Source: a virus
Reading direction: 5' to 3' (one strand)
IMG/VR virus record: IMGVR_UViG_3300025127_007848
Span: 1 to 45,505 of that record
Length of the DNA stretch: 45,505 bases
The notes below the pieces were generated by a model. That model saw nothing but the letters and a program-made list of their open reading frames with translations. It was not told the DNA's origin and ran no database searches. Position 1 is the stretch's first letter; each line of letters begins with the position of its first letter. Positions 5,999-21,180 of this stretch are shown piece after piece. A program made the position numbers and the translations under genes.

Positions 5999-6663
5999 GA
6001 CAATACATAACGGAAATGTCAAAAAAATCAAAAAAAAAATTTAATCAACATAAAATTCATGGTAAATCTTTTATTTTTACGCAACCATTTATAAATAACA
6101 TAAATTTAGATTATGTAAAAACAAAAATAGAAACGTTGGTGCCTGAATATTTTTTTGACAACGTTGATGGTTTTTTTGTAGGATATGTTGATGAATTTTT
6201 TAAAGACGATAGAGAATACAATGCAATGTTTAAAGATAATGCCATTTATCTCTCACCAGATCAAGACAATGAAAGAGATTTATTAGACGATATACTACAT
6301 GAATTAGCCCACGCAGTCGAAGAAAAAAATAAAGATTTCATATATGGCGACGGAAGGCTTGAAAGAGAATTTTTAGTAAAGAGAAAATACCTATATTATC
6401 TTTTAAGTGATAAAGAATATGGTATGTCAGCGTATGAAAATCCAGAATATGATTATGATTTCGATCAGCATCTGTATAAAGATATCGGATATGATTATTT
6501 GAGAGGTGTATCTGCAGAACTATTTTATTCTCCTTATGCTATTACAGCCTTAAGAGAGTATTGGGCAAACGGATTCGAAAACTATTTATTAGGAAGTAGA
6601 GGGAAATTAAAAGAAATTAGCCCTGTTCTTTATCAAAAAGTAGATTCTTTTTTTGACATTTAG
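5995..6663 (+). CDS. Putative HExxH zinc metallopeptidase
   Basis: This is a 222-residue protein. The TTG at 5995 overlaps the previous stop and has GAGG seven bases upstream; an ATG at 6016 is the alternative start. The sequence DILHELAHAVEE places a zincin HExxH motif at residues 102-106. A downstream REYWANGFENYLLG offers Glu residues that could be the third zinc ligand, as in the anthrax-lethal-factor-like (ATLF) group of peptidases. The body is rich in Tyr, Phe and Asp. There is no signal peptide, so it acts in the cell or in the virion. Targets are unknown; head maturation or host takeover are possible. Confidence 0.7.
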   Translation: MRQYITEMSKKSKKKFNQHKIHGKSFIFTQPFINNINLDYVKTKIETLVPEYFFDNVDGFFVGYVDEFFKDDREYNAMFKDNAIYLSPDQDNERDLLDDILHELAHAVEEKNKDFIYGDGRLEREFLVKRKYLYYLLSDKEYGMSAYENPEYDYDFDQHLYKDIGYDYLRGVSAELFYSPYAITALREYWANGFENYLLGSRGKLKEISPVLYQKVDSFFDI

Positions 6664-6671
6664 GAGACACA

Positions 6672-7055
6672 ATGAATATTATTTTAGAACAAGAAAAAAA
6701 TAAAATTATTTTAAAAGCAACTTTAACGTTCAGGGGAAAAAGAGGTGAAACAGTTTTTTTCACAGATCTAGACGCAATTAACTGGATTAATAAAAACTAT
6801 CCAGATATTAAATTAGGTGACTGCATCGATGCACCTACAAAACCTATTGATAATATTAGTAAGTTTAATGGCACTTGGGTATTTAATGTCGCTGAAGAAA
6901 AACACGTTGACAATAATGTTGATTATGTTACAATAGACAATATTAAAAAATCTAAATCCTCAAATAAAGACATAAAACAACGAACCGTGCCCTCAACAGC
7001 TAAAAAAACAACAAAAAAGAAAAGGGCGGCAAAAAACAAAACAACAGAGGAATAA
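6672..7055 (+). CDS. Protein with lysine-rich histone-like tail
   Basis: This 127-residue protein has AGGAGA upstream of its ATG. Residues 1-95 look like a small folded domain with beta strands (IILKATLTFRGKRG, NGTWVFNVAEE). The last 30 residues are Lys/Thr/Ala rich (TAKKTTKKKRAAKNKTTEE), like the tails of histone-H1-like proteins, so it may bind nucleic acid. It directly precedes the PD-(D/E)XK nuclease gene; ATG follows the stop without a gap. The function is otherwise unknown. Confidence 0.65.
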   Translation: MNIILEQEKNKIILKATLTFRGKRGETVFFTDLDAINWINKNYPDIKLGDCIDAPTKPIDNISKFNGTWVFNVAEEKHVDNNVDYVTIDNIKKSKSSNKDIKQRTVPSTAKKTTKKKRAAKNKTTEE

Positions 7056-7862
7056 ATGTCTCACATATCTTACTCAGAGCTTAAAGAGTGGAATACTTGT
7101 GCTTGGAAACATAAGCTAAACTATATTGACAAAATAAAACAGTTTAAAGGGAATGAACACACTGCTTTTGGTTCTGCACTACATACTGTTTGTGAAGTTA
7201 TAGTTGAAGACTATGATAAAAATAAAAAATCCATAGATCTTGAGCAGCTTTTTGAAAGAGAGTTTTTACAAAATCTACAGAAAATAAAAAATTCTAGTGA
7301 CAATATTGAGTTTTCCGCAGAACTTTTAAACTCTATGCGTGCTCAAGGAAAGCACATAATTCAGTTTATTCTACCTGCTTTAAAAAAATACTTTGGTAAA
7401 TTTGAGCTGGTTTCCGTAGAAGAACAACTTTACGAAAATATTGAAAATAAAAAAGTAGAAAAGAATTTTAAAGGCTTCATCGATCTGGTGATATATACAC
7501 CAGATACCAAAAAATATCACATTATAGATTGGAAAACTTGTTCTTGGGGCTGGGACAGCCGAAAAAAAACTGATAAGATGATCACATATCAACTAAGTCT
7601 ATACAAACACTTTTGGTCTAGAAAACATAATAAAAATTATAAAGATATAACTACTCATTTTGCTTTATTAAAAAGAACAGCGAATAAAAATAACGTAGAA
7701 TTATTTAAAGTTACAAACGGTGAAAAGAAAATTGGTAATGCCCTTAAATTACTAAACAAAGCCGTATATAATATTGATAAATGCAACCACGTCAAAAACA
7801 GACTTTCCTGCTACGGCAAATACGGCGTGTGCGAATATTATAAAACAAAATACTGTTCATGA
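7056..7862 (+). CDS. Cas4/RecB-like PD-(D/E)XK nuclease with putative Fe-S site
   Basis: This 268-residue protein shows the RecB-family nuclease pattern: SYSELKEWNTCAWKHKL at the start, GSALHTVCE with the motif-I His, FKGFIDLVIY with the GxxD Asp, IIDWKT giving the DxK catalytic pair, and ITYQLSLY as the QxxxY-type motif. Cys15 plus Cys252, Cys259 and Cys267 match the one-plus-three cysteine layout of AddB/Cas4-type [4Fe-4S] nucleases; Cys243 is extra. It probably degrades or trims single-stranded DNA ends in phage recombination or host DNA breakdown. No Cas1 or CRISPR array lies nearby, so this is a phage nuclease and not an adaptation module. Confidence 0.85.
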   Translation: MSHISYSELKEWNTCAWKHKLNYIDKIKQFKGNEHTAFGSALHTVCEVIVEDYDKNKKSIDLEQLFEREFLQNLQKIKNSSDNIEFSAELLNSMRAQGKHIIQFILPALKKYFGKFELVSVEEQLYENIENKKVEKNFKGFIDLVIYTPDTKKYHIIDWKTCSWGWDSRKKTDKMITYQLSLYKHFWSRKHNKNYKDITTHFALLKRTANKNNVELFKVTNGEKKIGNALKLLNKAVYNIDKCNHVKNRLSCYGKYGVCEYYKTKYCS

Positions 7863-7869
7863 GGTACAA

Positions 7870-9138
7870 ATGGATAAAAAAATTAAAGTACTCACTCTTA
7901 GTGACATGCCACTAAGCCCTAGCGGAGTTGGAACTCAAACTAGGTATATATGTGAAGCACTATTAGATAGTGGAAAATTTAAAATTATTTCTTTTGGTGG
8001 AGCGATTAAACACCCAAAATATGATCCTATCAAAACTGATAAATATGGAGATGATTGGGTTATGTTCCCTGTTGATGGTTATGGCAATCAAGAGATGCTT
8101 CGCTCTGTAATTCGTCAAGAGAAGCCAGATATTCTTTGGTTTATGACTGACCCACGTTTTTGGGATTGGTTGTGGTCAATGGAAAATGAAATTAGACCTC
8201 TTATGCCTATGGTTTACTATCATGTTTGGGATAATTATCCTTATCCAACCTTTAATAAACCACTATACGAATCAAACGATTTTATCGCAACGATATCAAA
8301 AGTAACAGATGACGTTGTTAAAACTGTTGCTCCCACCGTAGAATCAAAATACATACCTCATGCTGTTAACAGTAAAGCTTTTAGACCAATAAAAAATAAA
8401 GAGCAATTGGAGCATGTCAAACAAAGTATACTTAAAGAACATTATGATCCAGATAAATTTATATTCTTTTGGAATAATCGTAACGCAAGAAGAAAACAGT
8501 CCGGATCTTTAATTTTTTGGTTTAAAGAATTTTTAGATAAAGTTGGTAACGATAAAGCATCTCTAATAATGCACACTGAAATTAAAGATCAAAATGGTCA
8601 AGATTTGGAAGCTATTATTCAGCATCTTGGTTTAACAAATGGTGAAGTGCTTTTTAGTCAGCAAAAAATTGATTTAGATAAATTGGCAATGATGTATAAT
8701 GTCGCAGACTGCACGATTAATATATCTGATGCTGAAGGTTTTGGATTGGCAACGTTAGAATCTTTGTCTTGTGAAACTCCAATTATTGTTAATATGACCG
8801 GAGGGTTACAAGAACAAATAACAGATGGCGAAAATGAATTTGGTATACCTGTTTATCCCGTATCAAAATCAATTATTGGCTCTCAAAGAATTCCATGGAT
8901 ATATGAAGATAGATTAAACAAAGACGATGTTGTAAATGCAATGGTAAAAATGTTAAATCTGTCCAAAGAGGAAAGATCAAAAATGGGAAAATTAGGTCGT
9001 GAGCATGTTATGAAAAATTATAATTTTGAAAATTTTAAAAAAACTTGGGTTGAAACAATGACAAAAATTCATGAAGAGGAAGGCTCTTGGGAAAGCCGCA
9101 AGTACACAAATCGTTGGGTTATTAAGGAGGTTTTCTAA
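7870..9138 (+). CDS. Glycosyltransferase, GT4-like (GT-B fold)
   Basis: This is a 422-residue protein. The ATG at 7870 has GAGG six bases upstream, which rules out the in-frame TTG at 7774 inside the nuclease gene. The N-terminus KIKVLTLSDMPLSPSGVGTQTRYICEAL is the typical acceptor-side Rossmann start with a Gly-rich loop. The C-terminal donor domain has FFWNNRNARRKQ and DAEGFGLATLESLSCETPIIV, matching the conserved E-x7-E donor-binding motif of GT4 enzymes. It opens the glycan island. Donor and acceptor are unknown. It is coupled to the next gene by TAATG. Confidence 0.9.
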   Translation: MDKKIKVLTLSDMPLSPSGVGTQTRYICEALLDSGKFKIISFGGAIKHPKYDPIKTDKYGDDWVMFPVDGYGNQEMLRSVIRQEKPDILWFMTDPRFWDWLWSMENEIRPLMPMVYYHVWDNYPYPTFNKPLYESNDFIATISKVTDDVVKTVAPTVESKYIPHAVNSKAFRPIKNKEQLEHVKQSILKEHYDPDKFIFFWNNRNARRKQSGSLIFWFKEFLDKVGNDKASLIMHTEIKDQNGQDLEAIIQHLGLTNGEVLFSQQKIDLDKLAMMYNVADCTINISDAEGFGLATLESLSCETPIIVNMTGGLQEQITDGENEFGIPVYPVSKSIIGSQRIPWIYEDRLNKDDVVNAMVKMLNLSKEERSKMGKLGREHVMKNYNFENFKKTWVETMTKIHEEEGSWESRKYTNRWVIKEVF

Positions 9139-10403
9139 TGAAAGTTTTAGTACGAGGACCTGCATTAACCAGGACGGGTTATGGTGAACATTGTAGATTT
9201 GTTTTGCGAGCTTTGCGACAAAATAAAAATATTGACATATATCTAATTCCTTTAAATTGGGGTCAATCTACGTGGGTGTGGGAAGATACAGAAGAAAGAC
9301 AGTGGATTGATGATTTAGTAAGAAAAACAGCAAATTATGGTCGCAGTGGTGCAACATACGATGCGTCTGTTCAAGTTACTGTACCTAATGAATGGGAATT
9401 ATTAGCTCCGGTAAACATAGGAATTACAGCTGGAATTGAAACCAATAAGGTGTCTCCTGTGTGGTTGGAGAAGTGCAACCAAATGGATAAAATTATAACT
9501 ATCTCAAATCATTCAAAAAACAGTTTTACGCAAGTATTTTATGATGGGATTGATAAAGTTAGCGGAAAAAAAACTAGATTATCTTGTATAAAAAGCGTTG
9601 AGGTTGTGCATTATCCTGTTAAAAAATTTAAAGAATTACCAGAACTGGATTTAAATATTTCTAGTAAATTTAATTTTTTAACAGTCGCCCAGTGGGGACC
9701 GCGAAAAAATTTAGAAAACACAATACGTTGGTTTGTTGAGGAATTTATTGATAATCCAGATATTGGTTTGATCGTAAAAACACATATCAGAGGTGGATCC
9801 ATTTTGGACAGATATGGAATGGTTGCAAATGTTTCATCTTTATTAAAAAAATATCAAAATAGAAAGTGTAAAGTATATTTAATGCACGGCGATTTAAGCG
9901 ATGAGGAAATGCACTCTCTTTACAAAAATAAAGATGTACATTCTTTAATTAGTTTGACACATGGTGAGGGATTTGGACTTCCTCTCTTCGAAGCAGCGTA
10001 CTCTGGGCTACCGGTTTTAGCCACAGATTGGTCAGGTCATTTAGACTTTTTATACAAACCAACTGAAAATAAAAAAGGAAAAGTAAAAAGAAAAGCTTTC
10101 TTTGCAAAAGTTGATTATGACTTACAACCAGTGCAGCAAGGTGCAGTGTGGGATGGGGTAATTCAAAAAGATTCTATGTGGGCATTCCCCCAACAAGGAT
10201 CCTATAAAATGAAACTAAGAGAAATATATAAAGATTATGATCGATACAAGTCTCAAGCTAAAAAACTTCAAGACTGGGTTGTTGAAGAGTTTAATGAAGA
10301 AAAACAATTAAATATTCTTAATAATAGTATTTTTCCAAGTGTCACTGCGGAAAATGAAGAAAATTTTGACGAAGATTTCATTTTTGAGCAAGTAGAATTA
10401 TGA
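9138..10403 (+). CDS. Glycosyltransferase, GT4-like (GT-B fold)
   Basis: This 421-residue protein starts within the previous stop, with GGAGG upstream. It begins MKVLVRGPALTRTGYGEHCRFVLRAL, a GT-B N-terminal loop. The C-terminal domain has FLTVAQWGPRKNLENTIRWF and GEGFGLPLFEAAYSGLPVLATDWSGHLDF, the E-x7-E nucleotide-sugar site. It is related in fold to its upstream neighbour but diverged in sequence, so the two probably add different sugars. There is no membrane segment. The acidic tail ends in the ATGA overlap with the next gene. Confidence 0.9.
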   Translation: MKVLVRGPALTRTGYGEHCRFVLRALRQNKNIDIYLIPLNWGQSTWVWEDTEERQWIDDLVRKTANYGRSGATYDASVQVTVPNEWELLAPVNIGITAGIETNKVSPVWLEKCNQMDKIITISNHSKNSFTQVFYDGIDKVSGKKTRLSCIKSVEVVHYPVKKFKELPELDLNISSKFNFLTVAQWGPRKNLENTIRWFVEEFIDNPDIGLIVKTHIRGGSILDRYGMVANVSSLLKKYQNRKCKVYLMHGDLSDEEMHSLYKNKDVHSLISLTHGEGFGLPLFEAAYSGLPVLATDWSGHLDFLYKPTENKKGKVKRKAFFAKVDYDLQPVQQGAVWDGVIQKDSMWAFPQQGSYKMKLREIYKDYDRYKSQAKKLQDWVVEEFNEEKQLNILNNSIFPSVTAENEENFDEDFIFEQVEL

Positions 10404-12052
10404 AATTTGTTAAAGATTTAATATCTGTTGTAATGCCAACGTACAACGATCAGCAATATTTAGAAAGTGCCATAGATGATATATTAAATCAAACTTATAA
10501 AAAGTTTGAGTTAATTATAGTAAACGATGGTAGCACAGATAATACTAAAGAAATTTTAGAAAAATATCAAAAGAAAGATCCTAGAATAAAAATTTTTAAT
10601 AAAAAAAATGGAGGAACCGGTTCTGCTTTAAATTTAGGGTTTAAACACGCTACTGGACAATATGGAACTTGGGTTTCTTCTGATGATCAAAAAAACAAAG
10701 ATTATCTAGAAATATTACACAATTTTTTAAAAAACAATCCGGATGTTGAATATGTAAACTCAGCTTTCATGAGTACATTTATGGGAGGTCCTTTTAAACC
10801 ATATAAATGGGTCGACATGGGACAAGGAGAAATATTAAAGTACATAATCCCCGATGGAATGGATCATGGAAATAATTTTACAAATAAATCATATATTGTT
10901 GATGACTGGGCACAAGTAAATTCAATTCAATGTTATTTAGGTGTTTGTTTTATGTTTACGATGCGTTTAAAAAAACAAGTTGGAGAGTATTTAGAAATTC
11001 CTGGTGAAGATTATGAAATGTGTATGAGAATGGCATTAAATTCCAGGACTGGCTATGTTGACAGTGTTCTTGGAACTCATTACAACCCCGAAGATTCTCT
11101 CTCTATGCAAAATAGACATTGCGTAGATGATGCAAATACTATTACAATGGATTTATTTGGTTCTGTTAAAAAATGGAATAATGAAAAAATTCCAAAAGTC
11201 GCCAGCTTTTATTGGGGCTCTGATAAGATGTCGTTTTTAAGATATCTTACGATTAAATCTTTTAAAGTTTTTAATCCAAGTTGGTCTATCCACCTGTATG
11301 TTCCTAAAAATATTTCAAATAATGTAACATGGAGAGATATCGGGACTGATGAATTACATCGCTGCGATCAAAGAGATTATCAAAGTAGTGAAGATTACTA
11401 TGATAAACTGCTAAATGAAGTTCCTTTGAAGCTAATAAAAGTTGATTTTTCAAAAACATTTATAACCGAAAACGCATCAGAACCTCACAAATCTGATTTG
11501 CTTGGTTGGAAAGTTTTGTCTTCTACTGGTGGCTTATGGGTAGATATGGACATAATATTTTTTAAGCCAATAACAGAGCTTAATGTAGACTTAGATGCTG
11601 ATACTATGGTGTGTTATGATGATCGACATTATGATTTGGATGGTGAGCCCATAGCTCCAATTGGATTTATGGGAGCTTCAAAAAGAAATAGATTTTATAA
11701 ACAAGTGCTTATTGAGAGTAAAAAATTATTTCAATCAACTGAATATCAATCGATTGGGTGTTTTGCAAAAAAATCTGCAGCATCAAGCGTTAAAAAAGCA
11801 AAAGTGTTATTTCCTACAAATAATTTTTATAATATTTCTGGTAACGCTGTTTACGCTCTAAATCACACTATGATACCATCTATTTGGGATAAAAACAATT
11901 TTGATTCTATAAAAGATAAGAGCATAGGTATTCATTGGTATGGCGGTCATCCTCTTTCTCAAAAATATAATAATCTATTAACACACAAAAACTGGAAAGA
12001 TTTTGATTGCACTGTTATTGAAGCAATTAAAAAGGTATATAATGAAGAATAA
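10400..12052 (+). CDS. Two-domain glycosyltransferase, GT2 fused to GT32-like
   Basis: This 550-residue protein has two transferase domains. Residues 1-235 are GT2: ISVVMPTYNDQQYLESAI, LIIVNDGSTDNT and SSDDQKNKDY with the metal-binding acidic residues. From about residue 266 a second GT-A domain starts with VASFYWGSDKMSFLRYL and carries SDLLGWKVLSSTGGLWVDMD. That is the DxD (D382, D384) context of GT32/OCH1-like and capsular transferases. It ends with an IHWYGGH segment typical of that family. The fusion could add two sugars in sequence. Its 3' end overlaps the epimerase gene by 11 bases. Confidence 0.9.
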   Translation: MKFVKDLISVVMPTYNDQQYLESAIDDILNQTYKKFELIIVNDGSTDNTKEILEKYQKKDPRIKIFNKKNGGTGSALNLGFKHATGQYGTWVSSDDQKNKDYLEILHNFLKNNPDVEYVNSAFMSTFMGGPFKPYKWVDMGQGEILKYIIPDGMDHGNNFTNKSYIVDDWAQVNSIQCYLGVCFMFTMRLKKQVGEYLEIPGEDYEMCMRMALNSRTGYVDSVLGTHYNPEDSLSMQNRHCVDDANTITMDLFGSVKKWNNEKIPKVASFYWGSDKMSFLRYLTIKSFKVFNPSWSIHLYVPKNISNNVTWRDIGTDELHRCDQRDYQSSEDYYDKLLNEVPLKLIKVDFSKTFITENASEPHKSDLLGWKVLSSTGGLWVDMDIIFFKPITELNVDLDADTMVCYDDRHYDLDGEPIAPIGFMGASKRNRFYKQVLIESKKLFQSTEYQSIGCFAKKSAASSVKKAKVLFPTNNFYNISGNAVYALNHTMIPSIWDKNNFDSIKDKSIGIHWYGGHPLSQKYNNLLTHKNWKDFDCTVIEAIKKVYNEE

Positions 12053-13115
12053 AACAATTGTGACGGTTACTGGTATTCGACCAGATTTTATTAGAATGTC
12101 AAAAGTTTTTAAAGCACTTGATCAAGCAGATTGGTGTAAACACATTCTCGTACACACAGGTCAACATTATGATGATCTATTATCTGGAATATTTTTTAGA
12201 GATCTAGATATTCGCAAACCAGATTACAATTTATCTATTGGCAAAGATGGAAAAAGTCATTATCAACAACAAGCTGATCTTGGACCAGCAATAATAGATT
12301 TATTAAAACAAAATAATATTCAACCTGATGTAATTTTGTTTTTAGGAGATAGCAATTCTGTTCTGGCTTCGGTGCCACTTCGTAAAGAGGGATATAAGAT
12401 TGGACATATTGAAGCCGGGATGAGAAGTTATGACGAACGCATGTTAGAAGAGATAAATCGAAAAGTTTGTGATCATGTTAGCAATTTCTTGTTTGTATAT
12501 CATAATAATTATAAACAAAAGGCATTAAGAGAGGGAATCCCAGAAGACAGAATACATGTGGTTGGAAATACAATCGTTGAGCCCCTTAAAGATATCGCAA
12601 GTAAAAAATATCTGGGCAAAGAAAAGCATATTTTACTAGACATTCATCGACCAGAAAATTTTAAATACCCAAAGCGTCTTAAAAAAATCATTCAATACGC
12701 AAATGAATGCTCTAAACTATATGATATGCCGGTTAAAATGCTTAAATTTGGGAGAACCATGAAGGCTGTACAGGATTATAATTTATTTCTTGAAAACATC
12801 GAAACAGTTCCTTTAATGGGATACAAAGATTTTGTAAAATTTCAACAAGATAGTAAGTTTATTATAAGTGACAGTGGCACTGCTCAAGAAGAGCCAGCGT
12901 TGTTAAATATACCAGTAATAGTACCTAGAGACTTTACAGAAAGACCAGAATCTATTGAAAATAATTGTAGTTTCATGTTAGTATTGGATAATAAACAATC
13001 TTGGTATGAATCGCACATTTGGCTATCTGATATATCAAATTTATCATCGACTGAGTGGCTTGGACCCGGAGATACGAGCAAGAGAATTGTAAGCATTTTG
13101 GAGAAAGAACTGTGA
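12042..13115 (+). CDS. wecB: UDP-N-acetylglucosamine 2-epimerase family enzyme
   Basis: This is a 357-residue protein from the ATG at 12042; the longer frame starting at 12003 lies within the previous gene. Hallmarks of the WecB/NeuC family are TVTGIRPDFIRMSKVFKAL, LVHTGQHYDD, LFLGDSNSVLA, HIEAGMRSYDERMLEEINRK and ISDSGTAQEEPALLNIPVIV. The family normally interconverts UDP-GlcNAc and UDP-ManNAc by C2 epimerisation in the cytoplasm. GIRPD in place of the usual GTRPE is a small deviation. In this island it supplies or edits an N-acetylamino sugar nucleotide. It is coupled to the next gene by a GTG that overlaps its stop. Confidence 0.9.
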   Translation: MKNKTIVTVTGIRPDFIRMSKVFKALDQADWCKHILVHTGQHYDDLLSGIFFRDLDIRKPDYNLSIGKDGKSHYQQQADLGPAIIDLLKQNNIQPDVILFLGDSNSVLASVPLRKEGYKIGHIEAGMRSYDERMLEEINRKVCDHVSNFLFVYHNNYKQKALREGIPEDRIHVVGNTIVEPLKDIASKKYLGKEKHILLDIHRPENFKYPKRLKKIIQYANECSKLYDMPVKMLKFGRTMKAVQDYNLFLENIETVPLMGYKDFVKFQQDSKFIISDSGTAQEEPALLNIPVIVPRDFTERPESIENNCSFMLVLDNKQSWYESHIWLSDISNLSSTEWLGPGDTSKRIVSILEKEL

Positions 13116-13831
13116 GTAATAAAAAAACAAGCGTGAATCTAATCACATGCGACAGACCTCACTTGGCGATGCAAGCGGTTACAACCCTTTACGAGACAAC
13201 CAAACATTTAAATGTTGAACTTGTTATGGTTGTTGACGGCGATGATAAAACAGTTCATGATGTAAACAAATTTTTAGAAGACAAACTGAGCGACACATGG
13301 AGTTGTATTATAGACTACTCCCCCCAAAGACGAGGAGCCTTGTGGTCGTGGAACCATGGATTGTCGTTAACAACGGGGGATATTCTTTTTCCATCGGGCG
13401 ACGACCAACTTTTTCATCCGAACTGGCTAGATCTAGCACTAGAGTGCCACGAAAAACATTTAGATGGATATGGGATGGTCGCTGTAAATGATTTGTTTTG
13501 GGATGGGAATGTCTTAGGAACAACCATGCTTGTTGATAGAGAATTTTGTATTGATCATCTGGGAGGGACATGGGCTTACCCTGAATATAATTATTTTTAT
13601 ATCGATAACGAGTTAAACGAACGTGCGAAATTGGCGGGACGATATGTGTGGTGTCCAGAATCAATAGTTGAACACTTTCACCCGTGTCGAGGAAAAAGAC
13701 CTCGTGATATGCATGATGAAGAAAGAGATGCACAAGATTTTGGGAGAATTGATAAACAGATTTTTGAAAGAAGAAAGGCTGCTGGCTTTCCAAACAACTT
13801 TGAACCCGCAATCAAGCGAGAGACAAAATGA
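13112..13831 (+). CDS. Glycosyltransferase, GT-A fold (GT2-like)
   Basis: This is a 239-residue protein. I chose the GTG at 13112, which overlaps the previous TGA and has GGAG about eight bases upstream, over an in-frame ATG at 13055 inside the epimerase gene. It reads SVNLITCDRPHLAMQAVTTL, then VMVVDGDDKT, then GDILFPSGDDQLFHPNW, which holds the acidic metal/nucleotide-sugar site of GT-A enzymes. VEHFHPCRGKRPRD near the end resembles the C-terminal His region of such folds. There is no membrane segment. From here to about 18.2 kb the DNA looks richer in G+C than its flanks. Confidence 0.8.
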   Translation: MSNKKTSVNLITCDRPHLAMQAVTTLYETTKHLNVELVMVVDGDDKTVHDVNKFLEDKLSDTWSCIIDYSPQRRGALWSWNHGLSLTTGDILFPSGDDQLFHPNWLDLALECHEKHLDGYGMVAVNDLFWDGNVLGTTMLVDREFCIDHLGGTWAYPEYNYFYIDNELNERAKLAGRYVWCPESIVEHFHPCRGKRPRDMHDEERDAQDFGRIDKQIFERRKAAGFPNNFEPAIKRETK

Positions 13832-14544
13832 GCAAATATAATCCATGGCCGCTAGGAAGCCTACCAGAAAATTTTAGACGTCCGGAAATTGACCTGTTGA
13901 AAGAAGCGGGATATGAGATTAATGACCCACGCGATGCCGTTACTTTGTTTGAAAATAAGATTGCAGCATATGCTGGTAGTAATTTCGCAGTCGCCGTGTC
14001 TAGTTGTACAGAGGCAATTTTTCTCTCTTTAAAATACTTAAAGGCAACAGAGCAAATCACTTTTCCGTCCCGAACATATGTTTCGGCACCGATGTCCGCC
14101 GTCAACGCCGGATGTGACATCAAATTTAAAGACTATGAATGGAGCGGCTTGTATTATTTAGAGCCGTACCCCGTCATTGATAGTGCCGTAAGGTTCACCA
14201 AAGATATGTATGAAAAAGGCTCTCTTCAGTGTCTATCATTTCAGATTAAAAAACGCTTGCCAATCGGCAAGGGCGGCATGATTTTGACAGATGATCCTGA
14301 AGCCAACCGCTGGCTAAGAGTTGCATCTTTTGAGGGTCGCCACCTTGAAGATCCATATGATAAAGATGAATTTGAACTTATAGGCTGGAATATGTATATG
14401 ACCCCGGAAGACGCTGCTCGTGGTATATTACTTTTTGATCAGCTTCCAGATGTAAATCCAGATGTATGTACTCATTTAGATTATCATGATTTAACTACAA
14501 AAAAACTTTTTAAATCTGGTGAGTATAAAGCCGAGCGATCTTAA
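13828..14544 (+). CDS. Short DegT/DnrJ/EryC1-type sugar aminotransferase
   Basis: This 238-residue protein matches the PLP domain of DegT-family sugar aminotransferases: VSSCTEAIFLSL (phosphate-binding turn), FPSRTYVSAPMSAVNAG, VIDSA with D118 facing the pyridine nitrogen, and SFQIKKRLPIGKGGMILTDD with K142 as the expected Schiff-base lysine. WNMYMTPEDAARGILLFDQL matches the helix after the large domain. Family members are usually about 370 residues; this one stops before the C-terminal small domain. It may be a natural short form, may need a partner, or may have lost activity. It would transfer an amino group to a keto-deoxysugar nucleotide, making the substrate for the formyltransferase downstream. 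Confidence 0.82.
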   Translation: MSKYNPWPLGSLPENFRRPEIDLLKEAGYEINDPRDAVTLFENKIAAYAGSNFAVAVSSCTEAIFLSLKYLKATEQITFPSRTYVSAPMSAVNAGCDIKFKDYEWSGLYYLEPYPVIDSAVRFTKDMYEKGSLQCLSFQIKKRLPIGKGGMILTDDPEANRWLRVASFEGRHLEDPYDKDEFELIGWNMYMTPEDAARGILLFDQLPDVNPDVCTHLDYHDLTTKKLFKSGEYKAERS

Positions 14545-14546
14545 AA

Positions 14547-15257
14547 ATGAGCAAAGATAGTAAAAAGACTTTATTCATAGGCTTCGAAGACTGTAATTAT
14601 TGCAAGTTAGCTTATGAATTTTTGATTGTGTGCGGCTTTGATGTTACGTGTTTGTGGGCATCAAAGAAAAGAAGAGACAAGCTACCGAAAGAACTAAAGA
14701 ATTGGTCGGGTGATTATCTTTTTCATATGAAATCATACTATATCCTTCCTAAATCGCTTTTGGATGGCGTAAAAATTGCGGCATTAAACTTTCACCCCTC
14801 TTCGCCAAATTATCCCGGTTCTGGCTGTTTAAATTGGGCATTATACAATAACGAAGATAAGACAGGTATCACTGTTCATCGTTTAAATGAGAAAATAGAT
14901 AATGGACAAATAATAAAAACATATGATGTGCCTATTTTTGAAAACGACAATATAGAGACATTAATACCCAGAGTACATACGAAGCAGCTAGAGGCTTTTT
15001 ACGATATTGTAACGACTATAAGTCAAAACGACCCCGTAGTTTTAGATATTGCAGCAACCACCACCGCAAATAAAAATATAAAATGGGGTTCAAAAACTGG
15101 TAAAATAAAAGAGATCGATAAACTTCAATTGGTTGATACCGCCGTGAAGAAAGAAGAATTAGAAAAAATAATACGAGCAACATCCATCGGAAAGTTTGGA
15201 CCTAAATTAATGTTGCATGGTCATGAATTTAAATATGTAAAGGGAAAAATAGAATAA
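14547..15257 (+). CDS. Sugar N-formyltransferase (Fmt/ArnA-like)
   Basis: This 236-residue protein carries the formyltransferase active site: ALNFHPSSPNYPG with N81 and H83, and GITVHRLNEKIDNGQII with D118. These are the Asn-His-Asp set that uses N10-formyl-tetrahydrofolate. Its length fits the core of sugar N-formyltransferases (WlaRD/FdtC/QdtF type) and is shorter than tRNA-Met formyltransferase (about 310). Placement right after an aminotransferase points to N-formylation of an amino deoxysugar nucleotide. The C-terminus (from about 190) may form a small beta subdomain. No clear Shine-Dalgarno is seen; the start is 2 bases after the previous stop. Confidence 0.88.
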   Translation: MSKDSKKTLFIGFEDCNYCKLAYEFLIVCGFDVTCLWASKKRRDKLPKELKNWSGDYLFHMKSYYILPKSLLDGVKIAALNFHPSSPNYPGSGCLNWALYNNEDKTGITVHRLNEKIDNGQIIKTYDVPIFENDNIETLIPRVHTKQLEAFYDIVTTISQNDPVVLDIAATTTANKNIKWGSKTGKIKEIDKLQLVDTAVKKEELEKIIRATSIGKFGPKLMLHGHEFKYVKGKIE

Positions 15258-16195
15258 TGAAAAGAGTATTGATTTTAGGGGGAACAGGTTTTATTGGAAA
15301 AAATCTTTTTAACCGACTTAGAAAAGACGCCCAATATGATGTAGTGGCAGTATCGAAATCAACAGGTGTCGATATATTAGATTTCGACCAGATAGCAAAT
15401 TGTATTAAAGAGACTAAGCCAGATGTAGTGTTTAATGTGGCATCGCACGGCGGCGGGATTCATTATGTGAAAAAGTTTGCCGCTAGCGTACTCTCAGACA
15501 ATATACGAATGGCATTGAATCTTTATCAGGCGATCAGTTGTTGGGCACCAGAATGTAAAGTAATTCAGCCTTTTTCAAATTGCTCTTATCCCGGCGATAG
15601 TTCGGTACAAAACGAAGAAAACTGGCTTAATGGTGATGTGCACAATTCTATTTTTTCTTTTGGTAATTCAAAAAGGGCTATTTATTATATTTCAAAATGT
15701 TATCACGAACAATATGGAATAAAAACAGTTAACCTTTTACTTCCAAATACTTACGGACCCGGCGACTCTTGTGATCCCAATAAAACACATGCTTTAAATG
15801 GGATGGCAATTCGAATGCTTAAGGCTAAGAAAGTTGGTGATAAAGAATTTGTCGTTTGGGGTACTGGGTCGCCCATTCGTGAATGGGCTTATGTTGATGA
15901 TTTTATTGAAGCTATGGTATTAGCCATGGATATTGATCATATGGCGTATCCCCTGAATATTGCCCAAGAAAAGGGTTATTCAATTGCAGAATCAGCCGCG
16001 ATAATTAAGAAAGCGTGTGGCTTTGAGGGTACCATCGTTTTTGATACTCAATACGCAGATGGAGATCCGGTAAAAATCTTAGGGAAAAACAAGTTTAAAG
16101 AAATGTTTCCCAATTTTGAATTTTGTGATCACGAAGAGGGCGTCAAAAACACTATAAAATATTATGAAGATATTTTTGAAAAGGAAGAAAAATGA
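15257..16195 (+). CDS. GDP-fucose-synthase-like SDR with altered active site
   Basis: This 312-residue protein is an extended short-chain dehydrogenase: GGTGFIG binds NAD(P), and GGIHYVKKFAASVLSDN, SNCSYPGD and VVWGTGSPIREWAYVDD closely follow GDP-L-fucose synthase (WcaG). S107, C109, K139 and H178 sit where E. coli WcaG has S107, C109, K140 and H179. The catalytic Tyr of YxxxK (Tyr136 there) is Phe135 here (FGNSK). A second YxxxK-like string (YYISK) lies in the following helix and is not aligned. The enzyme may have lost the reductase step and kept epimerisation, or may use another acid. It overlaps both neighbours by a few bases. Confidence 0.88.
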   Translation: MKRVLILGGTGFIGKNLFNRLRKDAQYDVVAVSKSTGVDILDFDQIANCIKETKPDVVFNVASHGGGIHYVKKFAASVLSDNIRMALNLYQAISCWAPECKVIQPFSNCSYPGDSSVQNEENWLNGDVHNSIFSFGNSKRAIYYISKCYHEQYGIKTVNLLLPNTYGPGDSCDPNKTHALNGMAIRMLKAKKVGDKEFVVWGTGSPIREWAYVDDFIEAMVLAMDIDHMAYPLNIAQEKGYSIAESAAIIKKACGFEGTIVFDTQYADGDPVKILGKNKFKEMFPNFEFCDHEEGVKNTIKYYEDIFEKEEK

Positions 16196-17130
16196 AACGT
16201 ATATTGATCACCGGAGGTGCCGGTTATATTGGGACAACCTTGATTCCTATGTTATTAGAGAGAGATTGTGAGATCACAGTCTTGGATAATCTTATGTTTG
16301 ATAATGGGGATAAATTGTTACCATTTATTGTAAAAGAGAATTTTACTTTTATTAAGGGAGACATCAGAGATGCGAATCTTTTAGAGGAAGTCACAAAAGA
16401 CAAAGATATAATTATTCACCTTGCAGCTTACGTTGGTTTTCCGTTGTGCCGACTAAAAGGCGAAAAGGAATCGCACGATGTCAACACAAAAGCGACACAG
16501 GGGCTTGTAGACTGTTTGTCAGATGAACAATATTTATTGTTTGGTTCAACAGGATCAAACTATGGAGAGGTTGTCGGTCTTTGCACCGAAGAAACGCCGC
16601 TTAATCCTCTGTCAATCTACGGGAGAACAAAGACAGAAGCGGAGAGGGCGGTGATGAGCCGAGTTAATTCTACTGCTTTTAGATTCGCGACCGCCTTCGG
16701 CTCCTCCCCTCGAATGCGTTTAGATTTACTTGTAAACGATTTAACACACAAAGCAATGACGGAAGGTTATGCAGTTATCTACGAATCTCATTTCTTGAGG
16801 ACTTTTATTCATGTCAGAGATATCGCAAGATCTTTTATTTTTGCGATAGACAATCAAGAAAAAATGGCGTCGAACGTTTATAATGTTGGCTCCAACACAA
16901 TGAATTACACCAAGAAGCGTGTCTGCGAGATAATCAAAGAGAAGGTGTCCGATGCCTACTTTCACTATGCAGATATTAAAGAGGATGTGGACAAGAGAAA
17001 CTATCAAGTCTGTTATAAAAAAATTAATTCGCTTGGATACGAAGTTACGAACACTTTAGAAGAGGGTGTGGAAGAATTGAAATTGTCAATCCCTCTTATC
17101 AAGGAAGCTACAAAATATGGCAATGTTTAA
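16192..17130 (+). CDS. NAD-dependent sugar epimerase/dehydratase (SDR)
   Basis: This 312-residue protein starts with ILITGGAGYIG (NAD-binding Rossmann loop) and has LDNL, GDIRD, HLAAYVGFPLC, FGSTGSNYGE and an intact YGRTK (Y143, K147). FRFATAFG and RTFIHVRDIARSF complete the extended-SDR pattern. The C-terminal DKRNYQVCYKKINSLGYE is typical of sugar-nucleotide epimerases and dehydratases. The exact reaction cannot be told. It shares overall plan and several local motifs with the SDR at 17270-18217, so the pair probably arose by duplication or by recruitment of related genes. Confidence 0.88.
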   Translation: MKRILITGGAGYIGTTLIPMLLERDCEITVLDNLMFDNGDKLLPFIVKENFTFIKGDIRDANLLEEVTKDKDIIIHLAAYVGFPLCRLKGEKESHDVNTKATQGLVDCLSDEQYLLFGSTGSNYGEVVGLCTEETPLNPLSIYGRTKTEAERAVMSRVNSTAFRFATAFGSSPRMRLDLLVNDLTHKAMTEGYAVIYESHFLRTFIHVRDIARSFIFAIDNQEKMASNVYNVGSNTMNYTKKRVCEIIKEKVSDAYFHYADIKEDVDKRNYQVCYKKINSLGYEVTNTLEEGVEELKLSIPLIKEATKYGNV

Positions 17131-17266
17131 AATGAATAGACATATATACAAATGGGATGAACAGGAAACTATTGACGCGATCAATAAAGAGATGTTATCT
17201 CCCAAGCCAACGTGGATTGGTCGAGTAGGTGGTTCAGATACAGATTTTGTAAAAAGGAGGTATTAA
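17117..17266 (+). CDS. 49-residue ORF, possible truncated gene remnant
   Basis: This frame lies between the two SDR genes and is too short for usual gene callers. It starts MAMFKMNRHIYKWDEQ and ends WIGRVGGSDTDFVKRRY. AAGGA lies about ten bases before the ATG, and the start overlaps the upstream gene. Its last codons contain the AGGAGG that serves the next gene (ATG at 17270), so translation may be coupled. IGRVGGSD recalls the N-terminal motif of some sugar-transferase-like proteins, so this may be the stump of a longer gene removed by recombination. That is inference. Confidence 0.45.
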   Translation: MAMFKMNRHIYKWDEQETIDAINKEMLSPKPTWIGRVGGSDTDFVKRRY

Positions 17267-17269
17267 AAA

Positions 17270-18217
17270 ATGACAAGAGAGCGAGTTTTAATTGTAGGTG
17301 GTGCAGGATATATCGGTGGTCATATGACGGATTGCCTTCACCACGCCGGATTCAGCGTTACAATATATGATAATCTTCTTTTCGAAAATCGATATATGAA
17401 GGAGGTTGATTTCGTTTATGGTGATATTCGCGACAAACGAAAGCTTTCAACCTTGCTTAAGAATCAAGATGTTGTGATATGGCTCGCTGGACTCGTGGGC
17501 GACGGTGCTTGTGCAGTGAATGCACCGCTCACTAGAGAATTAAATGTCGATTGCCCAAAGTGGCTGGTCGATAATTTTAATGGTAAAATTGTTTTTCCAT
17601 CAACGTGCTCAGTATATGGAATTAATAATGATTTAATTACAGAAGATGCAGAGCCGAACCCACTGTCTTTATACGCGGCAACAAAATTGGAAGCTGAACA
17701 ATATATTTTAAATAACGCCAAAGACCCTATGGTATTCCGTCTTGGAACACTCTATGGGCTTGGCGACCTGCATTCGCGAATTCGACTGGATCTGGTGGTC
17801 AATATCTTGTCCATGAGAGCAGCTAGGGGCGAACCTCTCACAGTCTTTGGTGGTGAGCAGTGGCGACCACTATTACATGTCCGTGACGCTGCAGAGGCTT
17901 TTGTTTTTAGTATTGAAAAAAACTTGTCCGGGCTTTACAACTTATCCCGAGAAAATTACCAAATTAAAGACTTGGCTCACGAGATTGCAAAGATCGTTCC
18001 CAACACCAACATTCAATATGTGGATATGAAGTTTGAAGATTTGAGAAACTATAAAGTGAATAATTCTCGCATCTTGAACACAGGTTGGGAATCAAAATAT
18101 TCTCTTGAATGCGGCATCAGCCAGATATATCAAATTATTGATACTAAAAGACTTAAAAATATTAACGATATAGTGTATTCTAATGCTAAGTATATGAGTT
18201 GGTTAGAGGAAACTTAA
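17270..18217 (+). CDS. NAD-dependent sugar epimerase/dehydratase (SDR)
   Basis: This 315-residue protein is preceded by AGGAGG. It contains VLIVGGAGYIGG (cofactor loop), YDNL, GDIRD, WLAGLVGDGAC, FPSTCSVYG, YAATK (Y135, K139), FRLGTLYG and RPLLHVRDAAEAF, then DLRNYKVNNSRILNTGW. All catalytic positions of an extended SDR are present. It is a paralogue in layout of the enzyme at 16192. Typical products would be a C4- or C2-epimerised sugar or a 4-keto sugar, but the substrate cannot be read from the sequence. Its stop overlaps the cupin start. Confidence 0.88.
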   Translation: MTRERVLIVGGAGYIGGHMTDCLHHAGFSVTIYDNLLFENRYMKEVDFVYGDIRDKRKLSTLLKNQDVVIWLAGLVGDGACAVNAPLTRELNVDCPKWLVDNFNGKIVFPSTCSVYGINNDLITEDAEPNPLSLYAATKLEAEQYILNNAKDPMVFRLGTLYGLGDLHSRIRLDLVVNILSMRAARGEPLTVFGGEQWRPLLHVRDAAEAFVFSIEKNLSGLYNLSRENYQIKDLAHEIAKIVPNTNIQYVDMKFEDLRNYKVNNSRILNTGWESKYSLECGISQIYQIIDTKRLKNINDIVYSNAKYMSWLEET

Positions 18218-18633
18218 TGAAAATTATGAATGGCGGCGTATTTGCCGATGATCGTGGAAAGCTGCGGTTTGTAAATGATTTTGACTTTTCAAAAGTCAAG
18301 AGATTTTATCAAGTTGAAAACCATAGACAGGGATTTATTCGTGCGTGGCACGGACATGTTCATGAGGGCAAATACGTTTATGTTGCTAGCGGCACAGCTT
18401 TAGTTGGTGCTGTACCTTTAGATGATAATAATGCAGAGCCAAAAAAGTTTATCATGACATCGGAAAAGCCTCAAGTTTTGTGGATTCCTCCAAACTATGC
18501 TAACGGATTTATGAATCTTGAAAAAGACACTATTATCTTATTTTTCTCAACTTCTACTTTAGAAGAGAGTAAAGGTGACGACATTAGATTTGCTTATGAT
18601 AAATGGAACATATGGGAAGAGGATTATCGGTAA
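18217..18633 (+). CDS. RmlC/FdtA-like cupin sugar epimerase/isomerase
   Basis: This is a 138-residue protein from the ATG at 18217, with AGAGGA seven bases upstream. The sequence VFADDRGKLRFVNDF, IRAWHGHVHEGKYVYVASGTALVGAV and VLWIPPNYANGFMNLEKDT follows the cupin core of dTDP-4-keto-sugar 3,5-epimerases. His residues are in the HGHVHEGK segment. RmlC is usually about 180 residues, so this is a compact member, closer in length to the FdtA/QdtA 3,4-ketoisomerases. Such an isomerase would make the 3-keto sugar that a DegT aminotransferase aminates, which fits the neighbourhood. Epimerase and isomerase cannot be separated by eye. Confidence 0.8.
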   Translation: MKIMNGGVFADDRGKLRFVNDFDFSKVKRFYQVENHRQGFIRAWHGHVHEGKYVYVASGTALVGAVPLDDNNAEPKKFIMTSEKPQVLWIPPNYANGFMNLEKDTIILFFSTSTLEESKGDDIRFAYDKWNIWEEDYR

Positions 18634-18923
18634 TGACGTTTAAAGAATATTATAATTATTATCTTACTTTACATCAAAATAAATGGACCCGAAGGTTACA
18701 CGTTTTAGGGCAAGTAGCAACTATTATTTTTGTTATAGCTTGTATTAAAAATAGTTTTTGGTTAGCACTCCCGCTCACTCCCTTTATCGTGTATCCATTT
18801 GCGTGGTCAGGACACTACTTTTTTGAAAAAAACAAACCGGCGGCTTTTAAAAATCCACTGTGGGCAAAAGCGTGTGATTGGGTTATGTTAAAAGATATAC
18901 TAATTGGAAGGATAAAATGGTAA
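18633..18923 (+). CDS. Mpo1/DUF962-like membrane protein
   Basis: This is a 96-residue protein from the ATG at 18633, which overlaps the previous stop (TAATG). The pattern YYLTLHQNKWTRRLHVLGQ, then two hydrophobic segments (about 24-38 and 42-57), then WSGHYFFEKNKPAAFKNPLW matches DUF962, the family of yeast Mpo1. His14, His23 and His61 are the likely conserved histidines. Mpo1 is an Fe(II)-dependent dioxygenase of 2-hydroxy fatty acid alpha-oxidation; bacterial members are common but little studied. In a phage it could alter host membrane lipids or a lipid-linked glycan carrier. The function here is inference; the family call is fairly strong. Confidence 0.82.
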   Translation: MTFKEYYNYYLTLHQNKWTRRLHVLGQVATIIFVIACIKNSFWLALPLTPFIVYPFAWSGHYFFEKNKPAAFKNPLWAKACDWVMLKDILIGRIKW

Positions 18924-19729
18924 AAGTTGTTATTTTAGGAAGTACAGGAATGCTTGGCAACGCAGTTACAAAAGAATTTTTAAGTGATGATTCTTATGAA
19001 GCATTTACATCTTATAGAAAAGAAAATCTTAAGTGGGATGAGAAGTCTTTTTATTTCAATGCAGGCGAAACATCATTTGATAAAATACCACGATGCGATT
19101 ATCTTATAAATTGTATTGGTATTATAAAACCATATATGAAAAAAGATTTAGAAAAAAACATCTATGTTAATTCTATTTTTCCTCATGCTCTTTCAAAGTA
19201 TTGTAAAGATAACAACATCAAGATGCTGCACATTACAACTGATTGTGTGTTTTCTGGAAAAGATGGCAAGTACACAGAAGAAAATTTTCACGACTGTTTA
19301 GACGCTTATGGGAAATCAAAATCACTAGGCGAAGTTGATTCTTCGATGACAATCCGCACTAGTATAATTGGGGAAGAAATCCACAGTAACGCTAGTTTAG
19401 TTGAGTGGGTTAAATCAATGAAGGGTAAAGAAATAAATGGTTTTACAAATCATTTATGGAATGGAGTCACTACAAAACAATATGGAATAATTTGTAAAAC
19501 AATTATAAAAAATGATCTATACGAGTCTGGGCTATTTCATGTCCATTCAGACGATGTAACAAAAATGGAGCTTGTATCGATTATTAATGATGTTTATAAT
19601 TTAAATATAAAAATTAGTCCTATGAAAACTAACATTTCATGTGATAGAAGATTGAGAACTGTAAAAAAATTAAATGAAAAACTTAATATTCCAAATTTAG
19701 AATACCAAATAAAACAAATGAGAGGTTAA
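18917..19729 (+). CDS. RmlD-like sugar-nucleotide reductase (SDR)
   Basis: This is a 270-residue protein from the ATG at 18917, with GGAAGGA upstream; a longer frame from 18878 lies inside the previous gene. It has VVILGSTGMLG (cofactor loop), CDYLINCIGIIKPY, NSIFPHALSKYC, LHITTDCVFSGKDGKY and YGKSK (Y131, K135). These are the signature of dTDP-4-dehydrorhamnose reductase relatives. NGFTNHLWNGVTTKQYG matches the substrate-side region of RmlD-type proteins. It probably reduces a 4-keto sugar nucleotide in the last step before transfer. It closes the glycan island. Confidence 0.87.
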   Translation: MVKVVILGSTGMLGNAVTKEFLSDDSYEAFTSYRKENLKWDEKSFYFNAGETSFDKIPRCDYLINCIGIIKPYMKKDLEKNIYVNSIFPHALSKYCKDNNIKMLHITTDCVFSGKDGKYTEENFHDCLDAYGKSKSLGEVDSSMTIRTSIIGEEIHSNASLVEWVKSMKGKEINGFTNHLWNGVTTKQYGIICKTIIKNDLYESGLFHVHSDDVTKMELVSIINDVYNLNIKISPMKTNISCDRRLRTVKKLNEKLNIPNLEYQIKQMRG

Positions 19730-20214: not shown

Positions 20215-20501
20215 CACACCTTTTCTTAGCCATCTCAGTTGTTCTTAATATTGTTTTTATCTGGTATATTATTCAACTTTTAAAAAGATTTTTAACTTTT
20301 CAAGAGGAGTTGGATGTTTTTAGTGAAACGCTAGAAGAATATAAAAATCATATTGATATCGTTAATAATCTTGAGCGATTTTATGGTGATGAGACTCTTG
20401 CTAATTTACTTCGCCACTCAAAAGCATTAGTTGGGGAGTGTCAAAACTTTCAACGTGTTTTAAGACAAGAGGAAGAAGAATATGCCGAGGAAGAGAACTA
20501 A
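20211..20501 (+). CDS. Membrane-anchored helical protein
   Basis: This 96-residue protein has one N-terminal membrane segment (about 3-24, LFLAISVVLNIVFIWYIIQLL). A long charged helix, probably coiled coil, follows, and the tail is very acidic (QEEEEYAEEEN). With no cleavage site apparent, it is likely an inner-membrane protein with its bulk in the cytoplasm. Its 3' end overlaps the sigma gene by 20 bases in another frame, so their translation is linked. The function is unknown. Confidence 0.7.
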   Translation: MTHLFLAISVVLNIVFIWYIIQLLKRFLTFQEELDVFSETLEEYKNHIDIVNNLERFYGDETLANLLRHSKALVGECQNFQRVLRQEEEEYAEEEN

Positions 20502-21180
20502 AAACCACTATTTCAGAAGAGAACATCAAGATGCGATTGTAGAATACTGCCAAACACAAGATTCTAAACGCCGCAATGAACTTTACAAAGATTTCATTGG
20601 ACCGGTTTTTGATGAAATGGTGGATAAAATTGTTTATACTTACAAATTTACTTCTCTTCCCAATATTGATTCTCTTAAAGATGATTGTAAAAACTGGCTT
20701 ATTACAGTCCTTAACAACTTTGATCCAGAAAAAGGTTCTAAAGCATTTACCTACTTCAGCGTTGTTTCTAAAAACTGGTTTATAGCAGAAGTAAAAAAGA
20801 CATCCAAAAAAGCAAAAAGAGAAACCCACCTAGAAGAATACTTTTTAACACATTCAGATAAATCAAATACCACTTCCATTCAGCAATTAGTTGTGCACAA
20901 TACATATCTAGAAGATCGTAACAAATATGAATTTTTTTCGCATTTAAATAAAGAAATACAATCTTGGAAAAAAATGCCCCTCCGTGAGAATGAAGTTAAA
21001 ACAATTCAAGCTATTGAAATTCTTTTTAACGATGCTAACAATATAGAAATTTTTAACAAAAAAGCTATTTACTTGTATATTAGAGAAATAACTGGGTTAA
21101 ATACAAAGCAAGTTGTAAGCTCTTTAAACAAAGTGCGTAAAAGATACGCGGAGTTTAAAAAAGAATGGGACGATCAATAA
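20482..21180 (+). CDS. 55: Late-gene sigma factor, T4 gp55-like
   Basis: This 232-residue protein contains YFRREHQDAIVEY, LYKDFIGPVFDEMVDKIVYTYKF, LPNIDSLKDDC and FDPEKGSKAFTYFSVVSKNWFI. These are the signature blocks of T4-type gp55, a reduced sigma factor corresponding to region 2. The C-terminal part (about 165-225) is helical and could be the clamp-contacting portion. It directs host RNA polymerase to phage late promoters (TATAAATA-like in T4). GAGGAAG lies upstream. The gene sits directly before the tail genes it would activate. Confidence 0.92.
   Translation: MPRKRTKNHYFRREHQDAIVEYCQTQDSKRRNELYKDFIGPVFDEMVDKIVYTYKFTSLPNIDSLKDDCKNWLITVLNNFDPEKGSKAFTYFSVVSKNWFIAEVKKTSKKAKRETHLEEYFLTHSDKSNTTSIQQLVVHNTYLEDRNKYEFFSHLNKEIQSWKKMPLRENEVKTIQAIEILFNDANNIEIFNKKAIYLYIREITGLNTKQVVSSLNKVRKRYAEFKKEWDDQ

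Follow-up and report, generated by a model that had tools for sequence, protein, structure and literature searches.

Phage sugar islands with short-chain dehydrogenases/reductases (SDRs), cupins, kinases, nucleotidyltransferases and rfaE are already known. Jumbo phages and cyanophages carry hypervariable glycosyltransferase (GT) clusters with SDRs, cupins, PfkB kinases and nucleotidyltransferases (PMC7824862), and the GT islands of pelagimyophages hold rfaE and UDP-glucose dehydrogenase (PMC7029224). In the GDP-heptose pathway of Campylobacter jejuni, the ping-pong C4-dehydrogenase Cj1427 acts on GDP-D-glycero-manno-heptose and depends on α-ketoglutarate (PMC10680097). In many marine phages, hypervariable sugar genes number in the dozens, and the usual explanation is ‘lipopolysaccharide (LPS) modification’. 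Here we describe an island that provides a testable alternative, at positions 7870-19729 of IMG/VR virus record IMGVR_UViG_3300025127_007848; the window that we analysed is the whole 45.5-kb viral record (45,505 nucleotides). We hold, with moderate confidence in the full scheme, that it is a glycosylation island of a large T4-like phage, in which two sugar-nucleotide modules would supply cytoplasmic GTs. An earlier note, made from the sequence alone, had called the island its best candidate for an undescribed system, which was too strong, since the jumbo-phage, cyanophage and pelagimyophage islands cited above are similar.

Thirteen plus-strand genes fill 7870-19729, abutting or overlapping, and the sole gap, of 139 bp (17131-17269), is the divider between two modules, A and B, into which gene neighbourhoods in related viral loci also split the block. 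The genes encode two GT4 enzymes, a GT2+DXD fusion, a small GT2, a WecB-like protein, a DegT aminotransferase, a formyltransferase, four SDRs, a cupin and an Mpo1-like protein. Profile searches confirmed the co-oriented, nearly gapless sugar block of the earlier note and every enzyme family that it listed; the note overlooked the Mpo1-like (DUF962) gene at 18633-18923. It was also right that the island has no obvious sugar-1-phosphate nucleotidyltransferase. The G+C content is 37-41% over 13-18 kb and 29-35% over most flanking sequence, first GTs included, as might be expected had the sugar-nucleotide genes been acquired separately. Module A comprises:

13828-14544, plus strand: compact DegT-type sugar aminotransferase of 238 amino acids, here mini-DegT (PF01041, 72.1 bits; cutoff 19.8)
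14547-15257, plus strand: sugar N-formyltransferase (PF00551, Formyl_trans_N, E 1.9e-18, 67.3 bits)
15257-16195, plus strand: SDR1, GDP-L-fucose-synthase-like (8du0, E 1.4e-34)
16192-17130, plus strand: SDR2, Cj1427-like nucleoside diphosphate (NDP)-sugar C4-dehydrogenase (6vo6, Cj1427, E 6e-84, residues 2-304 of 312)

The earlier note had the family of the aminotransferase right, and missed that the protein is half-size. We fetched 80 viral loci as its neighbourhood set and took residue conservation from an alignment of 73. The 80 viral relatives span 194-241 amino acids, and none has the two-domain DegT architecture of about 360-400 amino acids; solved relatives at E ≤ 0.001 all have at least 359, and a BFVD structure search gave six matches at E ≤ 0.001, every one a longer protein. 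Against GDP-perosamine synthase, the mini-DegT profile aligns in two stretches with about 40 residues missing from between them, and most of the C-terminal domain is gone. Such losses would suit a protein that is inactive or is a pyridoxal phosphate (PLP)-dependent 3-dehydratase; in vitro, a PLP C3-dehydratase does follow Cj1427, and in C. jejuni HS:5 it acts on the 6-deoxy analogue (PMC10680097). We nevertheless judge this reading improbable. The alignment has 29 invariant columns (including Asp118, Ser137, Lys142 and Asn188) and the AlphaFold2 model is confident (predicted local distance difference test, pLDDT, 93.3; predicted template modelling score, pTM, 0.90). By sequence the PLP site is intact, and the gene does not look broken. 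The Schiff-base Lys is invariant among all 73 aligned sequences; ColD-type dehydratases typically lack it. A distant mini-DegT clade (loci L104-106) keeps the Lys and has His at position 188. In a Foldseek search, the best matches to the model were GDP-perosamine synthase and ArnB, both C4-aminotransferases.

The neighbours of mini-DegT provide our strongest evidence for an amine product, which also counts against a dehydratase. An N-acyltransferase lies within two genes of mini-DegT in 45 of the 80 loci, where 10.7 were expected and 2000 shuffles reached a maximum of 22 (by locus, GNAT in 40, hexapeptide in 5 and formyltransferase in 1). In the window, the N-formyltransferase follows directly downstream, and its Asn81-His83-Asp118 triad lines up with those of WbkC and of three phage relatives. 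The Asn-His-Asp site that the earlier note had named was thus borne out, and its view of a phage-borne glycan island is supported by two adjacent enzymes whose active sites are intact in sequence. The best solved relative of the formyltransferase is the GDP-perosamine N-formyltransferase WbkC (5vyr, E 2.7e-11), with a purine formyltransferase near at 2e-9; because the aminotransferase gene adjoins, a sugar is the more probable substrate.

The formyltransferase has three close relatives (60-65% identity), each with mini-DegT before it and SDR1 after it, and with the Cj1427-like SDR next or one gene further. At locus L002, where mini-DegT is 84% identical to that of the window, a hexapeptide acyltransferase gene separates mini-DegT from SDR1 and no formyltransferase was seen, and in L104-106 the formyltransferase accompanies the distant mini-DegT clade. 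From these arrangements, the pairing of aminotransferase and acyl group seems to have been exchanged between phages. A different, second formyltransferase family (246 amino acids) occurs in sister islands beside SGNH-hydrolase-like and WecB-like genes (L019:5170-5907 and L043:7116-7853). The L002 sister island also holds a full-length DegT and a Gfo/Idh-type oxidoreductase (6172-8165), like WbpE/WbpB of 2,3-diamino uronic acid synthesis. In Synechococcus phage S-SCSM2R (L082, 9013-11724), a compact DegT annotated as 3-amino-5-hydroxybenzoic acid synthase is followed by a radical S-adenosylmethionine maturase and a 2-oxoglutarate oxygenase, possibly a different use of the family.

Mini-DegT is not exclusive to phages: 19 loci from genome collections ruled this out, several of them on long bacterial contigs that also carry polysaccharide and membrane genes, and in the tree viral copies are interspersed with cellular ones. 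Several neighbours at the bacterial loci are WecA-like, PMT-like or ABC-exporter membrane proteins. Some of the bacterial-assembly contigs may themselves be phage.

SDR2 would set the route to the amine. After 6vo6 its next best structure match reaches only 4e-25, and its YGRTK aligns with YGIDK of Cj1427 (the SDR Tyr/Lys). The collected loci hold 27 genes of this family, 42-55% identical to Cj1427, beneath which the score drops from 218 to 97 bits. The 4,6-dehydratase motif [ST]DE[VI][YF]G occurs in none of the four island SDRs, which read STGSNYG, STCSVYG, TTDCVF and SNCSYPG; three are Epimerase-type by profile and the fourth, SDR4, is RmlD-like. The earlier note was therefore right to see no certain 4,6-dehydratase. 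Its view that the 4-keto sugar must be host-derived does not follow, because SDR2, by analogy with Cj1427, could supply it and make a 4,6-dehydratase unnecessary. The grouping of aminotransferase and formyltransferase with SDR1 and SDR2 implies such a C4-dehydrogenase route. Alternatively, a host 4,6-dehydratase could provide dTDP- or GDP-4-keto-6-deoxyhexose, which the phage would aminate and formylate to Qui4NFo or N-formylperosamine or, with the cupin as ketoisomerase, to Qui3NFo/Fuc3NFo. Perosamine enzymes are the nearest solved relatives of both the aminotransferase and the formyltransferase, as this would predict. We find the classical route rather doubtful, however, since a Cj1427-like C4-dehydrogenase in the same module would remove the need for a 4,6-dehydratase.

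In SDR1, the Ser, Cys and His of GDP-fucose synthase are retained at their positions (Cys and His forming the epimerase dyad), and Phe replaces the catalytic Tyr. Orthologues of SDR1 have SDR2 within two genes downstream in 7/7 loci and mini-DegT upstream in 6/7, the seventh lying at a locus edge. We dropped the idea that the Phe marks an epimerase-only enzyme, as MlghC, with the same Phe, is a C4-reductase; SDR1 may epimerise only, or reduce too.

For the identity of the substrate, we turn to the sister islands. In 12 loci (L034, L035, L038, L039, L042, L046, L049, L052, L058, L070, L071 and L079), the Cj1427-like gene adjoins one for an HldE-like nucleotidyltransferase, and an HldE-like kinase is encoded no more than three genes away. 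The examples scanned score under the curated HldE cutoffs. This neighbourhood suggests that activated heptose is made by these phages.

Module B follows the gap:

17270-18217, plus strand: SDR3, a more distant Cj1427 relative (6vo6, E 2e-41; motifs STCSVYG and YAATK)
18217-18633, plus strand: cupin, RmlC/FdtA-like epimerase or ketoisomerase (PF00908, 40.5 bits; PF05523, 28.5 bits)
18633-18923, plus strand: Mpo1-like (DUF962) membrane protein, an optional passenger (PF06127, E 9.7e-30)
18917-19729, plus strand: SDR4, RmlD-like C4-reductase (PF04321, 54.4 bits; 2ggs, E 1.9e-10)

Of 38 close viral relatives of the cupin, 36 are preceded by SDR3 and all 38 are followed by SDR4, usually overlapping or adjacent, and mini-DegT is present in only 13 of the loci. 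The single ketoisomerase route to Qui3NFo/Fuc3NFo proposed in the earlier note, and with it the cupin's part in a 6-deoxy pathway, fits poorly with this linkage, on which we rejected the cupin as an FdtA-type partner of the aminotransferase. Its fold alone is compatible with ketoisomerase chemistry. The cupin is closer to RmlC by sequence; by fold (AlphaFold2 pLDDT 90.4, Foldseek) FdtA and RmlC are about equally near. The FdtA-like Tyr and His-x-His are kept, the invariant residues being Tyr31, His45 and His47, together with Lys52 (the RmlC-type Lys), a set that suits either enzyme. By analogy with Cj1427/Cj1430/Cj1428, SDR3-cupin-SDR4 would read as C4-oxidation, epimerisation or isomerisation, and C4-reduction. 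Direct viral searches with SDR4 gave no confirmed relative, though other searches did. Mpo1-like proteins have 16 relatives in mini-DegT loci and lie between cupin and SDR4 in L119, L120 and L135. Genes of this kind (DUF962, 2-hydroxy fatty acid dioxygenase) recur in islands L002, L039, L042, L043, L046, L104-106, L119, L120 and L135, sugar islands where no other lipid step is seen.

Upstream of module A lie the GTs and the WecB-like gene:

7870-9138, plus strand: GT4a glycosyltransferase (PF00534, E 4.6e-12; relatives in phages immuto, Mel-JY01 and RM378)
9138-10403, plus strand: GT4b glycosyltransferase (PF00534, E 1.3e-9)
10400-12052, plus strand: two-domain glycosyltransferase, GT2 (PF00535, E 1.3e-35, residues 9-119) plus DXD (Gly_transf_sug, PF04488, E 5e-4, residues 359-395)
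12042-13115, plus strand: WecB-like homologue of non-hydrolysing UDP-N-acetylhexosamine 2-epimerases (PF02350, Epimerase_2, E 1.3e-68, 231.9 bits)
13112-13831, plus strand: GT2-like glycosyltransferase with uncertain start, probably GTG (PF00535, E 9.2e-10)

GT4b comes after GT4a in GT4a-bearing loci. For the WecB-like protein, whose closest solved structure is 4neq (E 8e-58), the superfamily named in the earlier note holds, PF02350 matching strongly, and the specific WecB assignment is not supported, as TIGR00236 gives 200.0 bits against a curated cutoff of 210.15. Direct viral searches with this protein likewise confirmed no relative, though other searches gave some.

We then considered where the glycan goes. 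By a simple hydropathy count of transmembrane (TM) segments, 0/1185 genes of related islands have three or more, and the same count gives proteins of 5-14 segments beside several bacterial mini-DegT copies. Export families were sought in eight large related records (160-362 kb) and 14 control genomes: flippase PF13440 (0/8 records, 14/14 controls), initiating transferases PF02397 (0/8, 9/14) and PF00953 (0/8, 12/14), and polymerase/ligase PF04932 (0/8, 9/14). The absence of export families and of proteins with three or more TM segments favours glycosylation in the cytoplasm, most simply of virion proteins. The open frame at 36696-45503, at least 2936 amino acids to the record end, has a laminin-G/concanavalin-like lectin domain; its product is a possible virion fibre and candidate glycan acceptor.

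Two other destinations have to be weighed. In the first, phage GTs would load sugars onto host lipid-linked intermediates, the host flippase and ligase would export them, and the changed O-antigen or capsule would block competing phages. This is the reading offered for pelagimyophage GTs (PMC7029224) and for jumbo-phage and cyanophage clusters (PMC7824862); the gene families fit O-antigen pathways, and bacterial compact DegTs lie near WecA-like transferase and ABC exporter genes. We regard host-surface remodelling as possible rather than probable, as none of the loci and records examined encodes a membrane step. In the second, island sugars would decorate phage DNA, which we consider very unlikely. 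T4-like phages can glucosylate hydroxymethylcytosine, and the GT4 genes are conserved within the island. However, PF00303 (thymidylate synthase/dCMP hydroxymethylase) was found in 0/6 and 1/8 large related records (overlapping sets; the window phage is a fragment), which argues against glycosylation of hydroxymethylated bases, and the island apparently makes several sugars, exceeding the needs of known DNA glycosylation.

In the virion-directed scheme that we favour, SDR2 would oxidise an NDP-sugar at C4; this substrate, supplied by host or phage, is most likely GDP-manno-configured and, by the Cj1427 analogy, a heptose. SDR1 might epimerise the 4-keto sugar at C3/C5, mini-DegT would aminate C4 with glutamate, and the formyltransferase would N-formylate the amine. 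Module B would oxidise, epimerise or isomerise, and re-reduce a second NDP-sugar, the WecB-like enzyme would be a source of an N-acetylmannosamine-type sugar, and the four GTs would assemble a short glycan straight onto an acceptor in the cytoplasm, for which virion proteins are the likeliest choice. Here, substrates, C4 amination, reaction order, product and acceptor are all inferred. A bolder version, which we think unlikely to hold in full, is a relay of half-size aminotransferase and α-ketoglutarate-recycling C4-dehydrogenase, in which the transaminase would regenerate the α-ketoglutarate spent by the dehydrogenase. It would yield a 4-formamido-4-deoxy sugar keeping its 6-OH, possibly a heptose, that the phage attaches to its virions, with the N-acetyl/N-formyl swap between related phages as a virion serotype switch.

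Several points weigh against the favoured scheme. Substrate nucleotide and sugar are assigned by analogy, and no HldE-like kinase or nucleotidyltransferase was found in the window, so that the case for heptose leans on the sister islands. Campylobacter MlghC, with Phe as in SDR1, is a C4-reductase (PMC7949155), and SDR1 could likewise reduce, diverting the 4-keto sugar. At 46 bits, the match of the formyltransferase is weak, and purine formyltransferases are close to it. Use of host export machinery is compatible with the absence of phage export genes, and published accounts of similar islands favour host O-antigen modification (PMC7029224; PMC7824862).

The island sits between two flanking genes, as the earlier note had placed it:

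7056-7862, plus strand: PD-(D/E)XK (Cas4/exonuclease-like) nuclease, conserved left boundary (PF12705, E 4.1e-18)
20482-21180, plus strand: gp55-like late sigma factor, right flank (phrog_234, E 1.9e-7)

The nuclease is upstream of GT4a in 21 viral loci and in Flavobacterium phage immuto; in Microcystis phage Mel-JY01, nuclease and GT4 genes occupy the matching area, with one IMP-dehydrogenase gene separating nuclease from GT4a. Judged by gp55, baseplate and GT4 proteins, Flavobacterium phage immuto and Mel-JY01 are the closest isolates, and Rhodothermus phage RM378 is a further one via GT4a. The window phage is a large uncultured T4-like tailed phage, kin of phages of marine Bacteroidetes and cyanobacteria. 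A 194-kb relative (G001) shares with the window the flanks, a baseplate gene, a PhoH-like gene and the island position. Nucleotide similarity to phage records amounts to one 76-base match. For expression timing, the late-promoter motif TATAAATA gave 5 plus-strand matches against 4.2 expected.

Outside the island, positions 1-1482 encode an N-terminally cut protein with a nucleotidyltransferase-like segment (KFKPPHRGHLDMIEHY). The lone minus-strand gene at 3457-4212 has a relative in G001, and its product looks like a trypsin-like protease that begins with a signal-like or lipoprotein-like stretch. Ahead of the nuclease, a conserved gene (5995-6663) has a zinc-protease-like HELAH motif and no Pfam match.

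In the openly searchable literature (subscription papers lying outside this scope), we provisionally found no description of the compact DegT family, of a Cj1427-type module without 4,6-dehydratase or of the SDR3-cupin-SDR4 trio, nor of compact DegT coupled to interchangeable N-acyltransferases including a formyltransferase; literature combining phage with N-formyltransferase or compact DegT gave nothing. The island adds a compact PLP aminotransferase family that phages share with certain bacteria; none of its solved relatives is as small, and its small, intact active site should make it simple to express and assay. It also adds a phage-borne Cj1427-type C4-dehydrogenase, often encoded near HldE-like heptose-activating genes. 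As the pathway appears contained in the cytoplasm, lacking every membrane step sought, the glycan may coat the phage itself.

Compared with known systems, the pelagimyophage, cyanophage and jumbo-phage islands are alike in setting; the main texts of PMC7824862 and PMC7029224 mention neither sugar aminotransferases nor formyltransferases, and we saw no account there of C4-dehydrogenase modules or of a lack of membrane steps. The FdtA/FdtB/QdtA/QdtB 3-amino sugar pathway likewise clusters a cupin, a DegT and an N-acyltransferase, but the phage cupin is inherited with SDR3/SDR4 instead of the aminotransferase, and dTDP-glucose 4,6-dehydratase is absent. The Brucella/Caulobacter N-formylperosamine enzymes (GDP-perosamine synthase, WbkC) are the nearest solved relatives and share the logic of transaminating and then formylating, whereas the phage aminotransferase is half-size and its 4-keto sugar would probably come from a C4-dehydrogenase and not from GDP-mannose 4,6-dehydratase. 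The C. jejuni GDP-heptose pathway (Cj1427 dehydrogenase, Cj1430 epimerase, Cj1428/MlghC reductase) is alike in several respects: SDR2 is close to Cj1427, the GDP-fucose-synthase-like SDR1 has the Phe of MlghC, the phage cupin is RmlC-like and no 4,6-dehydratase is needed. In contrast, the phage adds an aminotransferase and a formyltransferase, lacks capsule export, and keeps in SDR1 the Cys/His dyad that is missing from MlghC. Finally, Flavobacterium phage vB_FspM_immuto, a Baltic Sea isolate, has at the same position nuclease, GT4a, GT4b, compact DegT and, instead of the formyltransferase, a PglD/NeuD-type acyltransferase with a WcaG-type SDR, and no module B was seen there. Because this isolate has a related arrangement, the question of the acceptor can be tested on cultured material.

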